From Rhizomucor pusillus (Eukaryota; Mucoromycota; Mucoromycetes; Mucorales; Lichtheimiaceae), in contig FWWN02000658.1 in NCBI GenBank assembly GCA_900175165.2, positions 62,001 through 126,000 of the forward strand: DNA of 64,000 bases, given 5' to 3'. Below, in pieces: positions 36,722 to 59,500 of this stretch. Positions within the stretch are counted from its first letter, which is position 1. Each line of letters starts with the position of its first letter. Both the position numbers and the translations under genes were made by a program. The notes under the pieces are model-generated. The model saw nothing but the letters and a program-made list of their open reading frames with translations, did no database searches and was not told where the DNA came from.

Positions 36722-38997
36722 AAAGGTAGAATTATCTAACGTCATTTGGCGTTCATGAACATACATTCTTCCCAGAAGCTAATTTCCCACCCCACCCCCG
36801 CAATGGAAATCGGTGTCGCATTCTCCAAAGTGTGAGTTTCGCAGTTCCCTAGACTATCCATCTGAGCAATAAATCCGAGCGCTACTGTAAAAAAAAGAAG
36901 CTATGCAGGCCATCATGCGATCTCATCGAACGACCTACTGCATAGCGTAAAATAATAGCAGATTGACTACACGATTGACCTGTATTCAACTACCAGGTAT
37001 CATGACGCGCTCAGAAAATTTCCAGTAGCATAGTAGTCAAGCAGTTACTGTCATGGTTACGAGAAGGTTGTCTCGACAGAAAACTATGTACATTTTATTC
37101 ATGCTCAAATGGAACTTGATGATTTCCTCTTCTTAGACTTATAAGGACGATGTAGATGAGGAATAATTGGAGGGTGAGATATGCGCCGGGGGAATAGTTG
37201 ATGGGTCGTCTGAATTTGGGGTCATGAAAGCAATCGATGCGGCGTCACTTCCCACGCAACTGATCAATGGTGTCCGTTATCAAGTCCTTGTAGCGTATTA
37301 CAAGCTGCATGAGCTTCTTAGTACATGAAGTCCGGAGAGGTCGGAAAATGTTTGAGACGTGCAGGATTACATCGGCGGGTTGCTTCCGGGTTATCAAGCG
37401 TGGAAGTAAGTACGAGCGAATCGCGGTGTACGAGGCAAGCGGCACACATATCCGGCTGGGGTGTTCATGGCCAGCATAGGGATCTAGAGACGCGTATTCT
37501 ATAGATTACTTGAAGCTGGCCATGCCAGCTGGTCGTTCGACGCTTCGCTGGGAATGCCGCTTAAAGAAAAATGAGGTATTTAGAAGATCATGTTGAATAG
37601 TCCTATGGGAGATTTACGAAAACAGCTTTATCCTTCTTGGCAGAAAGCAGGAGTGGACCAGTCCCCAGACAAAAAGAGGACCAAAGACACGTACGGCAGT
37701 ATTGGAACGACTCAAGGAACACAAGCTATACGCCGAAATGGAAAAAAGCCAATTTGGAGTAGACCGATTGGAAGAAGTCATACTCGTACATGGTAGTCAC
37801 GTCTTCAATGGTCTTCTGGGCCCACCGCAATATCAGGCTTCGACAGTCAGCTACATAAAACAGACGGTGATCAGAGCACGGCCAATCGTGCCTCACCCTA
37901 TCTCCTGCTGCGTGCGCTGGTAATACAAAAATGAACCTGACGGAGGATGCTGTAGATAATCATCAGATGCCATTTTTTTTGAAAAACACATTTATAAGAA
38001 GCGTCCCCAGCTCTCGCTTAGAAATGTATTTGGAGCCTTTTAGAAAACGCTTCTAGGAGAGGCCATTGGCTCAATTTAAGATGTTGACCACTACGATTAT
38101 CAAATAGGAATCACCCTTTAGCTTCGTACTGCATTCAGTTCTGTGAAATTTTGCAACAATGTTTTACCATCAACGTCCAGGGTATTTATGCATATACTGC
38201 ATGTATCGATTTATGATAAAGCTGTATATGCTGGGACATCACACCGAATGTTACCGGTTAGCGATATTTACTAGTCTTTCGACTACAGTAATAGAATATT
38301 CATATATCAGAGCAGCCAGCGGTATTGTCTCGTGAGGATGCCTTTATGAAATATTGTTAAAAGTGAAGCCGCTCAGAGATCTCCATAAGTGAATGACTGT
38401 TTGTGGCTACCTTTGGTACAATGTTGGAGCTTGTAAACAATTGTAAGTTATGAACATAGATTAAAAGAAGTACGTTAGAATGAAGAGAAACTTATTTCCT
38501 TTGCATTGATCGTGTCCATGGCCAAGCTTTCCAGGGCAAGAAGAAAGCCGCGTATGCAAGTCGACTAGTCAACGCAAACGATGATATCTCTGGCGCAAGC
38601 TATTCATTAATTAAATCTGGTGTTCCGGGATGAAAACAAAGGGGAAACTTGGGACAACCGTCAGGGACTTTGTTCCTAAATGTCCATCAAGAAATACGTA
38701 CACTGTAATAATTGTAACTTCTCATTTCTTCCTAAGTATCATTAACCTTATTTGACGGTCGTATGCCCTTCACGAGCCAACATGCCACCTCTGTGTGCTG
38801 ATCAGATATGGCTCATACATTTATGCCTATATTGTTTTCATTTCAAATGTACATATGTCCAAGCATGATTATTACAGGCTCTTATCCAAGCAGAGAAACG
38901 GGAAATGCCGGGGAAGACGGTTTGGCAACTTTTTTGATAAAGCGAAGATTCACGAGTTATGCGGAACCCATAGTCTACAATTGAACACTGTATAGAC
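36722..38997. other. Gene-poor island
   Basis: Apart from a short gypsy reverse-transcriptase scrap near 37.7 kb I find no gene. Frames are short and unsupported on both strands. The right end adjoins the Fanzor-like gene and may contain its 5' exons or transposon end; an AG acceptor near 38877 is followed by a short open frame that I cannot assign. Confidence 0.5.
37670..37830 (+). pseudogene. Ty3/gypsy reverse transcriptase scrap
   Basis: Around 37700 the plus strand reads ERLKEHKLYAEMEKSQFG followed by VDRLE, the conserved segment of gypsy reverse transcriptases after the catalytic YxDD region. Upstream HVRQ lies in another frame, separated by a one-base indel, and the expected FLGH after VDRLE is lost. 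No long terminal repeats were noticed. It is a short dead fragment. Confidence 0.7.
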
Positions 38998-40547
38998 GTG
39001 ACATCGTTCAATGTTGCAAGGCTCCATGGAGCAACTAACAAGGGTGCTTCCAAAGCTTGCAAGAAGTCGTTTTTTACGCCCACTCCATTGGATGGAATGG
39101 AAAAAGACGATTTGATGACTTGCATCGAGACATGGGAGGAGCGTATTTCGGCGTTGCAAGAGAGAAGCAAGGAGTTGAACATGCGAAAGCATACATCCAT
39201 TAAAACATTAAGCAAGGCTGAACAAGAAGGAGCAAAGCGTGCAGACCTGAAATCATTACAGCTGGCAAAAGCTGATGCAGAGTATGAAGCGCTAAAGAAC
39301 CAGCTAGCCTTGAAAGACTTTCGTGCTGCTGTTAATCATACGAAATGGATGATGAAAAACCAGGATCGCAAAGACGGCAGTGGAAAAGAACAGGAGAGGA
39401 TGGCAAGACCTGCATTAGAGCACCATACATATGAAGCCAGAAGTGTTGGATCTATCAAGACTACAAAAGGAGGCAGCAAGATCGTCCAGGAAGCTTGCAT
39501 TCAGTGGGACCGATTGCGGTATCGTAAAACGTCAGTTACGGTGCCGATATCATTACAACAGTATCGACATCATATCGAGCTGTACAAGCGATTTCAACCG
39601 TTATCGACCAAGGAGGAAGATATGAGGATGGTAGCAATGGCAACGACGAGCTAACCTCCCAAAGGTGCAACGACTTGCTTACATTACCAAAGCCTTCGAC
39701 AATTTCATCCAAGCATATGTATAATAAGGCAATGGTGTACAAGAATGCCAAGTATCGAGAGAAGAGAAAAGCTCGAAATCCAGAGGTCCGAGAAGCGGAA
39801 GAAAACGTTGCAAACAACAATATTCACAGCGCCAAGTCTGTAGAAGATGTTTCCAATTGGCAGAAGGTATAATTGATTCTCTTCGTTATTATNNNNNNNN
39901 NNNNNNNNNNNNNNNNNNNNNNNNNNNNNNNNNNNNNNNNNNCTCTACAATATTTCTATAACTCCCCAGCAGAAAACCGAGCAAAATGCAGCCAAGAGCT
40001 GGCCCGGAAAAAAGCGTATTCGCAGGAAGCCTCCCGTGAAAAGGCATACGTGAAAGAAGCTTGCGGAACCGGGAAGAAGTCTATTCCCATTATGTTCATC
40101 GGCGACCAAGGCTTAGGAACAAACACACGGTTAAATGGCCACGTGAAGGGAGTGGCCACGAAGATACGAAAAGAGCACCATTTACACACAGTCGTGGCCA
40201 TGACATCAGAATATAGAACATCTCAAACCTGCGACTGGTGCCTAGGACCTGTTGTGGGACCCAAGGCAACCATCCTAAAGGATGGAAAGAAGAAAAAGCG
40301 GTCCGTTCATGGTGCTTCTTTATGCATGAATACCAAGTGTCCTTTGTATAGGGCCGGGCGAGCCGTACAAGGCCGTGACTATATGGCTGCAATTTGCATT
40401 GCACTTAATGGCATTAGCCGGGTGATAGACGATATACACCTATCGCCTTTTACAAGACATTCAGCCGCTTTACATATGCTGAATACAAGCAACTCCCCTG
40501 ACATCATTGGTGATAATTGGACTTCACAGTTATGTATCTTTCAGTAA
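38998..40547 (+). pseudogene. Fanzor-like (TnpB-family) RNA-guided nuclease gene, interrupted or incomplete
   Basis: The C-terminal part (39943-40547) has the hallmarks of Fanzor proteins: a YNS...R helix region, FIGDQGLG, then VVAMTSEYRTSQTC (Glu codon 40209-40211), a zinc ribbon with CDWC (40230-40241) and C-x4-C (40323-40340), and GRDYMAA carrying the presumed RuvC-III aspartate (40377-40379). TnpB relatives use RDxNAA at this point. Upstream, 38998-39654 encodes about 218 residues, mostly charged helix, in another frame; 39675-39872 is in the same frame as the nuclease end but closed by TAA, possibly inside an intron with donor GTATAA at 39867. A 50-N gap follows. I could not find the RuvC-I aspartate. 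The gene may be spliced and intact, or decayed. Confidence 0.72.
39893..39942. other. Assembly gap (50 N) inside the Fanzor-like gene
   Basis: Fifty undetermined bases between the helical upstream part and the nuclease domain. The gap size is probably nominal, so reading frames on its two sides cannot be compared. Confidence 0.99.
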
Positions 40548-41299
40548 AACTCACAGTGCTGAAATGTTAGGCAATGATGCTCAGGAGGATTCTGTCGAAG
40601 GGACAGATATACAATCTTCCCTAGATGAATGTAAGTTTCCGTCGATAAGCCTACATGAAACAAGTGCACTGACTTTATAATTATAGGAGAGGTAAGAAAA
40701 TAGAAGGCTACTTTTACATCAATTCTTGTACTATGCGACCTGGGGCGTCCTTTTGCGCTGGCTCTGCTTACGGGCTTGCACGAATATCGCAAGCGTTAAG
40801 TCGTCAAATTTCAGTAGATTACAGTGGTTCAACGTTAATTCGATTTCTGTAGGCGCAAAATGTAGCCAACTAAAGCGCTAAAGGATTTTCCGCGCACCAC
40901 CCAAAAATGCCGCTGCGAAAAAATGCCAGCGATGTTGTTGATCGTGCCGATAGAAAGAAGTGGGGCGGTTTTTCTCACATCTTGATTAAATTCTCATAAT
41001 CCATGTTGTTACAATAATTACAAAAAGAAAAAAACCATGTTGGCTTCTGGCGAGTATGGTTCAACAAAGAACACAGTGATATTTCATTGCAAACAAAGAT
41101 GCCATATGTACAAAAAGGGCGAAATTGAAAGAGAGAACGACATTGTACAAACAAAGAAAGATGAAGAAAGGCAAACTGCTATGTAGGAAGTAACGCAGGA
41201 AAAGAGAAGAGTGTCGATTATATACAGTTATTTTTTGTTTTCGGCGGTGGTGGCGGGTATCGTGATAAGAGAGCAACAAAACCATCCTTGTCAATTCGC
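40548..41299. other. 3' flank of the Fanzor-like gene
   Basis: Directly after the stop a different frame continues with acidic sequence (MLGNDAQEDSVEG) up to a good donor, GTAAGT at about 40632, and an acceptor near 40685, so a last exon may exist. The remainder to 41299 has no gene. In Fanzor elements the guide RNA comes from the 3' end, so this is where one would look for it; I see no proof. Confidence 0.4.
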
Positions 41300-42251: not shown

Positions 42252-43945
42252 CTATGAGTTCGACTGCATCTTTCTACGGTAGGCCACGGAAACGAGAGCA
42301 AAGCCTAGCAACGTCATCGTGGCACAAAGTGCAAACATCATCGAGGTTGACATGTCATTTACCTTGATTCATGAAAATTAATAAGCAGTCATTTATATCT
42401 GATTAGCAACAACCTTCTTTATATTTGTAAACGAAAATGATACTCACATGCCACATGATAAGACCAACGCCGAGGTTCATTGGAATCCGCAGCAGAGTCA
42501 TGATGGCTGCCCTCGTCTCTTCTGGTATTGTTTCGGCTTTCAATGATGATATGGATGGATAATAAAGTCCTGTTGAGAACTCAAATATATGGAATGCGAT
42601 GATTAGAATTGAAAGCTGTGTGTGGATAAAATTAGCTTATTAGAATATGCACAGATAATGGCATTCCAGATAGCAACGGGACTTACAGAGCTTGATTCGC
42701 TGTATACCATGAGAGCAAAGGAGCAGCTAGCTACAGCCAGAGCTGTAGCCAGCAGTTTGTTGGGAGTGAACCATCGTAAAAATGAAGATGACGAGGATAA
42801 GGATGCACGCTGTTCAAGGGTTTGGAAACTGAGAGAACCAAGCATGACTGCAAACATCATCGTTGAAAACATGTATCCCAACGGGATCTCATCCGAATCT
42901 ATATATCGATCACGTTCGAATGTTATTTATTCAATGTTTGATATTCGAAAATACATACCATGAATTGCAGCCGTATTTTCAACAGCCGGAGTGTACAAAA
43001 GAACAAATATGTACATGGCACACTCAAAGACTGTCTGCGCTGCTCCCAGAATCATTATATTTGTATCTATTTGGGAAGCATAAGTTGGTTATTTGTATCA
43101 ATAGCTCATTCTTGCATATTTTACCATTCCACATTGATCGGCAACCATCTAAAATTGTTGCTGTCAATGATCGTTTGGTGGTGGAAATTTCAGAGCTCTC
43201 CCCATAGTTTTCGGACCAGGTGAGAGTGATAGTTGAGGATGCTACGCCAAGCAAAGCCATAGATATTAGGAAGGGTGCTGAGAAACCCCACATGTTGACT
43301 GCTGTGTTTGCTACGACGCCTGCGACGATAGCTACCAGACCGTTCAAGAACGTGGCGACGGCAAAGGTCCGTGCGCGCCACTCCGATGGGAATCCTCGTG
43401 AGATATGCTCTGACACATACCATGCTTCAAATACACTGTACTGCAGAGCGGCAGCTGTGCCTGATAGCACGTGAGATGTAAGGAGAAGGGTATAATTATT
43501 GACAAGTCGTAGCACAATAGATACGGCTGTTATTCCGCAAAATGCAAGACAAAATCGGCGTCGACCCCTAACACCTGCGCATCAGCGTTGTACTGGAACT
43601 ACTGCTGTCTATATATATCTGTGCAGACCATGAATCGGCAAGACCGCCCAAAGCTGTGCCTGCCACTGCACCGCTTACAAAACCTGTCAAAAACAGCAAA
43701 GCTATCCGTACTAGATCTAGTCCGTACGACTGGTATAGCTTGTATAGATACGGGCCCTGAAGCCAGTCAGCGCCTATTGTCTAGAGATGAGAACAAGGCG
43801 CTGCGGATCGCGTCGTACGCGTCATATATGTACCCATAACAAGCAGATAGACGACGAGGTATGTGTGTTGGAGTGCTTGGAAGCGCGACTGCTGCTTCGT
43901 CTCATTACTACTGCCCTCTACTTCCATTGGCTGCATTGTCGTCAT
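42252..43945 (-). CDS. MFSD5-type (molybdate) major facilitator transporter
   Basis: Membrane carrier of the MFSD5 group, linked to molybdate-anion uptake in algae and animals. Seven exons: 43945-43834, 43773-43629, 43567-43125, 43066-42959, 42898-42687, 42615-42448 and 42362-42252, 432 residues with about 12 helices. Marks are ADWLQGPYLYKLYQSYG, GGLADSWGRRRFCL (loop 2-3 motif), LSGTAAALQYSVFEAWYVSEH, ATFLNGLVAI and FEFSTGLYYPS ... IPEETR. Donor of intron 2 is GTCTGC, unusual but required by the motif LADSWGRRR. The start is MTTMQPMEVEG, with an N-terminal cytosolic segment. The substrate assignment comes from the family only. Confidence 0.88.
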
Positions 43946-58473: not shown

Positions 58474-59500
58474 TCAGAGTTGCTCTCTGCGGCACTTGCC
58501 TAAGCATTTGTAGGAATGAGAGACGAAACCTTTGTGATCCTTCAACTTTAAGCTGTCAGTAGCTTCACTGATCCTAGTCATAAGTGTTTCCTTTTCCAAG
58601 AATCTGTTACGTTTAAATTTGCTTTTGACGACTGACCAAAACTGTTCAAGCGGGTTAAGCTCGGGAGAGTGTGATGGCAGGTAGGCACAACGTAACCTCC
58701 GGACGTGGTATACTTGGCTAGCATCATCAGACTTATGGATGGGGATATTATCCATTACAAGGTAGTAGTCCCTCATGTGCGGATACTGGTCCATTTCGTC
58801 CATTGTAGCCTTCAGGAAGCTTAGGTAATACCCGTTATGGTTCCTGTCTTCATAAGCTCAGCGTCTGCTCCTCGCTTTCTGTTCTTGACCGGCGGCTGCG
58901 TTAATCTCGGGCTGCACTTCGCCAGACTGGAGCCAGAGATCGCGCCCAAAATGGTGGTTGTCTGCGCTCGTATTTTGGGTAGTGACTGTCGCAGGGGAGG
59001 CTTTCTTCGACCAGGCCATAATGCGCTTCATGTTACATGGAAAGCAGACTCAACCACGAAGACGCAATTGCTCCTGAAATCCATTTCTGTCCCCTCCCAC
59101 TTGCGCACCCAATCAACCGCTGTTGGATCTTCTCCTCGCTGTTCCTGTCTGCAGACTGGAACCGGGTCTTCTTGAACGATAAGTTGAAGTGGGTCCTCAC
59201 AAAGTCATAAACATTACTCTAGAGACCTTGAGTCATTCTCTGAAACAATCGTTCTCATCAATGTATTCCAAGATCACCTTCTTATGTTCTTCGGAAGGAT
59301 ACCTGGGCGACGAACCCTCTTAGGCTTCGCAAAGATGGTGTCAGGACCCTTTCATACTGCTCAGTCCATTTTTGTCCTGTACGAACATGAATCCTAACTC
59401 CTTGCAGCAGCTGACGCGTTCGTAACCTTCTCAAACGTCACTTTAAAGAACCTCACTCTATCCTGGTCTATGTAGATTGCGTAAACTCGCTTTGAAGGTC
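58474..59500 (-). pseudogene. Tc1/mariner-type transposase relic, copy 2
   Basis: Better preserved copy of the relic at 29.6-30.3 kb, in opposite orientation. The C-terminal frame (58803-58474) has YLVMDNIPIHKSDD with the second catalytic aspartate and SHSPELNPLEQFW with the final glutamate. Further upstream on the same strand VFVVESAFH matches the first catalytic motif, where the usual aspartate (VF-D-ES) is valine (codon 59054-59052). An in-frame TGA follows two codons later, and weaker helix-turn-helix sequence extends to about 59500. It is therefore inactive. Flanking inverted repeats were not found. Confidence 0.8.

Follow-up and report, generated by a model that had tools for sequence, protein, structure and literature searches.

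This locus raises two questions: does a gene fragment in the window (the 64,000-nucleotide stretch of a Rhizomucor pusillus contig analyzed here) descend from an RNA-guided nuclease, and is this copy of it alive? Fanzors, the compact RNA-guided nucleases of eukaryotes, have drawn interest as genome-editing tools. Our analysis indicates that the locus is very probably a dead copy of a transposon gene, the product of which would have been a divergent member of the TnpB/Fanzor superfamily. The features of the locus are collected in Table 1.

Table 1. Positions in the window of the element, its coding remnants and the conserved motifs.
Feature	Position	Strand	Basis
Degenerate Fanzor-carrying element, ~2.9 kb	37986..40891	+	BLASTN boundaries vs 12 stretches of the same genome; end alignments
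Coding remnant, helical region before RuvC-I, frame 1	39052..39438	+	TBLASTN with R. pusillus P0005
Coding remnant in another frame, holds RuvC-I	39437..39526	+	TBLASTN with P0018, P0009, P0014, P0007
RuvC-I SGTDCG, candidate catalytic aspartate	39503..39520	+	Motif and TBLASTN
Coding remnant after RuvC-I, frame 1 again	39527..39621	+	TBLASTN with P0005
Coding remnant, helical, RuvC-I to RuvC-II, frame of the C-terminal exon	39620..39866	+	TBLASTN with P0005, P0014, P0009
Putative intron (donor GTATAA, holds the stop) and start of next exon	39867..39942	+	Copies L031, L033, L032; P0005
C-terminal exon, end of RuvC domain with zinc ribbon; stop at 40545-40547	39943..40547	+	ORF translation, genome matches
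FIGDQG, putative strand of the canonical TnpB RuvC-II glutamate	40095..40112	+	Motif
Alternative RuvC-II glutamate, in EYRTS (40209-40223)	40209..40211	+	Aligned with SpuFz1 E541
C4 zinc ribbon, CDWC (40230-40241) ... CMNTKC (40323-40340)	40230..40340	+	Motif, family profile vs SpuFz1
RuvC-III RD, in RDYMAA (40374-40391)	40374..40379	+	Aligned with SpuFz1 D606
Long hairpin region of the right end, candidate guide-RNA scaffold	40735..40898	+	Folding, z -0.44 in the window copy

The earlier note on this DNA had recognized a Fanzor by an EYRTSQTC segment, a four-cysteine zinc ribbon, GRDYMAA and a preceding GD-x-G strand. All of these are present in Fanzor order and spacing: FIGDQG, EYRTSQTC, CDWC, CMNTKC and RDYMAA follow one another in the C-terminal exon. 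The acidic site of FIGDQG is D, N or T among the relatives. The proposed displacement of the catalytic glutamate to EYRTS agrees with the cited part of Yoon et al. (PMC10711439), and this glutamate aligned with E541 of SpuFz1. A glutamate of the alternative RuvC-II type, placed six residues ahead of the zinc finger, tells Fanzor from TnpB and is found in the window: exactly six residues lie between E (40209) and the first zinc-ribbon cysteine (40230). When the same 200 residues were shuffled 20000 times, the pattern E-x6-CxxC...Cx2-4C...RD appeared twice; the combination is rare by chance.

The kinship with Fanzor and TnpB was pursued with profiles. As a single sequence the C-terminal piece of the window was too weak a query. 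It gave nothing significant against Pfam, NCBIfam or the PDB, its score for Pfam TNB was 10.5 bits vs a cut-off of 26.3, and no solved Fanzor was found with it in the PDB. With its relatives included, the claimed kinship was borne out. The A6 family profile, searched against PDB chains, matched SpuFz1 at E 2e-6, the next match being at E 0.28, and SpuFz1 was also the top PDB match of the other profiles (A2, 1.1e-5; A1, 0.0013; A3, with four sequences, 0.017). With profiles A1, A2, A3 and A6, SpuFz1 was the only Fanzor, TnpB or Cas12 chain of the PDB below E 10. The A6 match spans about 190 positions, not the ribbon alone, and sets the family glutamate on E541 and the RD aspartate on D606 of SpuFz1 (chain offset 394), the catalytic residues of which are D383, E541 and D606 according to the cited part of its description (PMC10432273). 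The RuvC-I aspartate lies upstream of the profile match and was placed by motif, order, spacing and invariance, not by alignment to D383. The D, E and D (D479, E739 and D795 in P0010) are invariant in the four A3 proteins, and hhalign against SpuFz1 together with families A, B and C of the same genome gave a probability of 96.8.

The AlphaFold model of the relative P0010 was poor (pLDDT 56.9, pTM 0.34), and its comparison by VIA-align found mostly the coiled coil of 327-438, with no Fanzor or Cas12 among the 50 entries listed, which speaks neither for nor against a RuvC fold. This lack of structural information and the silence of the databases toward the window piece alone leave some room for a zinc-ribbon protein unrelated to RuvC nucleases, alike by chance or convergence. 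Such a protein does not account for a match that reaches well beyond the ribbon or for three invariant acidic residues, and the idea is largely refuted by the hhalign and A6 results; we regard it as extremely unlikely. The Fanzor/TnpB motif described by Bao and Jurka, D-X(125,275)-[TS][TS]-XX-C4-X(5,50)-RD (PMC3627910, as given in the part cited), is present in P0009, P0010 and P0013; in P0014 the spacing is 276, one residue more than the range allows. All parts of this motif are in the window, but in different frames.

The aspartate of RuvC-I, which had been sought upstream of the exon, was located in SGTDCG, in another frame. The coding part upstream of the exon switches frame near 39438, 39526 and 39620 (TBLASTN), and at each switch the adjacent codons carry on in another frame with nothing skipped. 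Of the proteins matching the segment that holds RuvC-I, P0014 does so at only E 0.23 (TBLASTN). Over the region of these changes the copy L033 has one open frame, and L032 has one frame with one stop. Introns were considered as the cause of the three changes and ruled out, since no sequence is skipped there and both copies stay in one frame.

A stop and a gap had been reported upstream as interruptions of the gene. Both are present, the stop lying in what is probably an intron and the gap within or adjoining it. The in-frame stop (39870-39872) sits within GTATAATTG..., and the stretch assigned to the intron and the start of the next exon is mostly hidden by a 50-base N gap (39893-39942). In L031 (at one place with L002) and in L033, CTGAC and TTAG come after GTATAATTG at a distance of up to about 55 bases; the intron region is complete in these two copies and altered in L032. 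Because of these signals, and because the annotated R. pusillus protein P0005 reads across the region, we infer from sequence and annotation that the stop is intronic.

Whether this copy was live and spliced or dead had been left undecided; with three frame changes and the loss of the element ends (below), it is a pseudogene. Compared with 12 copies, the window copy showed 65/85/115 differences by codon position, and 149 nonsynonymous codons, 90 synonymous codons and 4 stops, all summed over non-independent pairs. Its divergence from the sister copies is close to neutral. The genome is a draft of 353 contigs with an N gap inside this very gene, which lends something to the thought that the frame breaks are assembly errors in a live copy. 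Three separate frame changes, two lost element ends and near-neutral divergence speak against such errors, and we consider a live copy very unlikely.

The feature itself is larger than the 38998-40547 first assigned to it, which covers part of a repeated element. Copy counts in the 24.5 Mb draft assembly are lower bounds. For the C-terminal piece the genome gave 42 matches, a count that takes in fragments and the piece itself, with identity from 100% down to 28%, and the 3' non-coding part (40550-40891) occurs at 17 places, the window included. In five copies (L035-L038 and L040) a shorter stretch replaces 38923-39942. Seven of the 12 stretches examined reach the left end, and all seven have TA[CT]AGGATTT there. 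Among the A5 right ends outside the window (n=7), AATCCAG-TA is intact in five, while one carries an additional base and another two changes; the right ends of L032 and L036 are altered. The right-end pattern was found at 10 places in the genome vs 0 for the reversed control, and that of the left end at only 2, even when as many as 3 mismatches were allowed. The ends of the better copies are thus mariner-like, with terminal inverted repeats adjoining TA as in Tc1/mariner elements. In the window copy, both repeats are lost or unrecognizable in the end alignments, and its left flank is single-copy except for three short partial matches.

No transposase gene was recognized in the elements, and we therefore presume that they were moved by a separate Tc1/mariner transposase. 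The genome holds 161 DDE_3 matches, none of them tied to the element's ends. The window has a DDE_3 (Tc1/mariner-type) transposase remnant of its own at 58474-58857 (-). Adjoining the element, at 42400-43580 (-), are open frames that resemble a membrane transporter by eye. Past the stop, at 40640-40690, most copies have GTAAG...CTGAC...TATAG, perhaps a second intron that gives an alternative C-terminus as in P0004. The window gave no Rfam match at the gathering score and no tRNA.

A second subfamily (L018, L019, L020 and L021) consists of longer relatives. Their elements end differently, in GACTAGA[TG]TAGCTAGTC for L018 and L021 and in TTAGCTAGTC for L019 and L020, and are without the mariner-like repeat; one of them, of ~4.9 kb and with a palindromic end, occupies about 70475-75407 of contig C41 (L018, L065, L069). 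These differences in the ends suggest that transposons of more than one kind carry the gene family.

At the right end of the element, ~160 bases immediately ahead of the terminal repeat can form a hairpin closed by 23 pairs. Folding of seven rows against plain base shuffles yielded z values ranging from -0.6 (window copy) to -5.4 for a stretch of ~190 bases, 0.5 to -3.8 for a longer stretch and 0.1 to 1.6 for a shorter one. With dinucleotide shuffles, applied on one strand to L040 and L037 (the two best of seven) and to the window copy, z was -3.2, -4.0 and -0.44, respectively; the right end of the window copy is not unusually stable. Pair counting on A5 showed 93.4% of cells paired vs 35-57% when slid, and covariation was not significant (one compensatory pair, with 71 of 500 shuffles as high). 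The pairing is a clear inverted repeat. The hairpin of some copies is a candidate guide-RNA scaffold, as yet unproven, and a subterminal repeat serving a transposase would look the same.

Relatives of the gene were found in Rhizomucor pusillus, Mortierella spp., Lunasporangiospora, Radiomyces and Modicella, all named hypothetical or uncharacterized; the count of 24 is a lower bound, only the 8000 candidates sharing most words having been scored. P0005 has an identical run of 283/331 residues with the copy L033, and P0011 one of 245 residues with L019. The precomputed Pfam column is empty for all 24 relatives, and the TNB model was touched at E <= 0.1 by 2 of 18. The window gene appears to belong to a poorly labeled branch of the Fanzor family in several early-diverging fungi. 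In P0022, a partial sequence, RuvC-II is preceded by 1080 residues, and the N-terminal extensions matched no Pfam model above its cut-off. An extra CxxCxxHH...C motif stands just before RuvC-II in P0009, P0010, P0013, P0014 and P0016 (Mortierella, Lunasporangiospora); it was not seen in the Rhizomucor sequences.

RuvC-I sets this branch apart. Among the 15 of 24 relatives that cover the site, 14 have D[YC]G, one has DYA and none has DPG. The motif reads [SA][GR][TS]D[YC]G...[MI]SxTV in most relatives; SGTDCG is common to the window and P0005, and SGTDYG is found in most of the others. According to the cited part of Yoon et al. (PMC10711439), DPG is near exclusive in Fanzors and D-hydrophobic-G is typical of TnpB. 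The window has DCG, and we therefore speak of a divergent variant and not of a typical Fanzor1. The third position of the triplet is not fixed either, since in SpuFz1 residue N385, two residues after D383, coordinates metal (PMC10432273, part cited).

Other families of the same genome bear on how this RuvC-I arose. Families A (L055, L056, L058), B (L062) and C (L063) score above the Pfam PF07282 cut-off, and in these and in family E the C-terminal motifs follow the order seen in the window family. RuvC-I is VDPG in A (L056, L058), GIDFG in B, GVDPG in C and GIDPG in E (L030). Family B, which has NEYNTSQIC with its GIDFG, is another exception to DPG, so the window family is not the only one. 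Family E has 31 matches, and its copy L030 has K at the site of the alternative glutamate. The combination of D[YC]G with the alternative glutamate also occurs in a TnpB clade with alternative glutamate and D-hydrophobic-G, as described in the cited part of Yoon et al. (PMC10711439), and it might have come from a separate prokaryotic TnpB lineage by a transfer apart from that of Fanzor. Both trees, which have long branches and no bacterial rows, join the window family with the DPG-bearing family E (support 99/98 and 92/91), and short patterns confirmed no relative in GTDB contigs (142 pattern matches) or viral contigs (28 pattern matches). We judge such a separate transfer improbable. The position of family E favors, on these trees, a secondary change to D[YC]G inside Fanzor; the window family alone as one clade has a support of only 46/34.

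The locus might also be an ordinary Fanzor1 of the kind covered by published surveys of Mucorales, with D[YC]G a local quirk, which would be compatible with the dead divergent copy that we favor. In the cited part of Bao and Jurka (PMC3627910), Mucor circinelloides has 10 families of Fanzor1, Rhizopus oryzae 4 and Phycomyces 3, all of this order, and Fanzor1 is also described from Mariner elements with duplicated TA. Other Fanzor structures have been published, among them that of PpFz1 from Parasitella parasitica, also of the Mucorales (PMC11423790, part cited). Within the genome, the closest kin of the window family (family E, L030) have retained DPG, and the DFG of family B shows that departures from DPG occur elsewhere in it. 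A local quirk is at odds with D[YC] in 15 of 15 relatives, with carriers in Rhizomucor, Mortierella, Lunasporangiospora and Modicella, which makes it a clade trait, and ordinary membership is at odds with the near absence of Pfam labels noted above. We see this as a possibility of some weight, short of an even chance. A literature search found no paper joining Fanzor and Mucoromycota; this branch may still be among the published families of Mucorales.

A bolder proposal is a separate Fanzor lineage of early-diverging fungi, marked by long N-terminal extensions, D[YC]G with the alternative glutamate, the CxxCxxHH...C knuckle (in Mortierella and Lunasporangiospora) and a right-end guide RNA of its own, and moved between unlike transposons (mariner-like ends vs the palindromic end of the L018 type). 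We hold it as tentative and rather doubtful because family B has DFG and because PpFz1 is known to us by description only.

Returning to the dead transposon gene of the TnpB/Fanzor superfamily, a function for its intact relatives may be drawn from SpuFz1. They would be loaded with a guide RNA that stems from their own element's right end, and the nuclease would recognize a short motif together with guide-matching DNA. The DNA would then be cut at a RuvC site to which RuvC-I and RD each contribute an aspartate, with the alternative glutamate as the third residue, and cutting may favor retention of the element, or its copying anew, once it has been excised. The origin of Fanzors has been argued from the signature of DPG with the alternative glutamate, and a eukaryotic branch that has this glutamate without DPG tests that argument. 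Because members of this branch carry no Pfam label, Fanzors may reach further among early-diverging fungi than is now estimated.

Among the known systems, the Tc/mariner Fanzor1 of Bao and Jurka (for example PUl-4) is likewise transposase-less, with terminal inverted repeats flanked by TA; compared by the description in the part cited, these elements differ in host and in RuvC-I, which is D[YC]G in the window family (PMC3627910). PpFz1 comes from a member of the Mucorales, as Rhizomucor is, and has a solved structure and a cyclophilin-binding insertion; it was absent under E 10 in our PDB profile searches and is likened here by its description (PMC11423790, part cited). The closest likeness in the PDB is to SpuFz1, the Fanzor1 of Spizellomyces punctatus (PDB 8gkh). 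The window family differs from it by a GSRIxGHARRGGKK segment in most relatives, and shares with it a helical stretch, the alternative glutamate, the RD, their order and spacing, and a C4 ribbon with CxNPxC as its second half.
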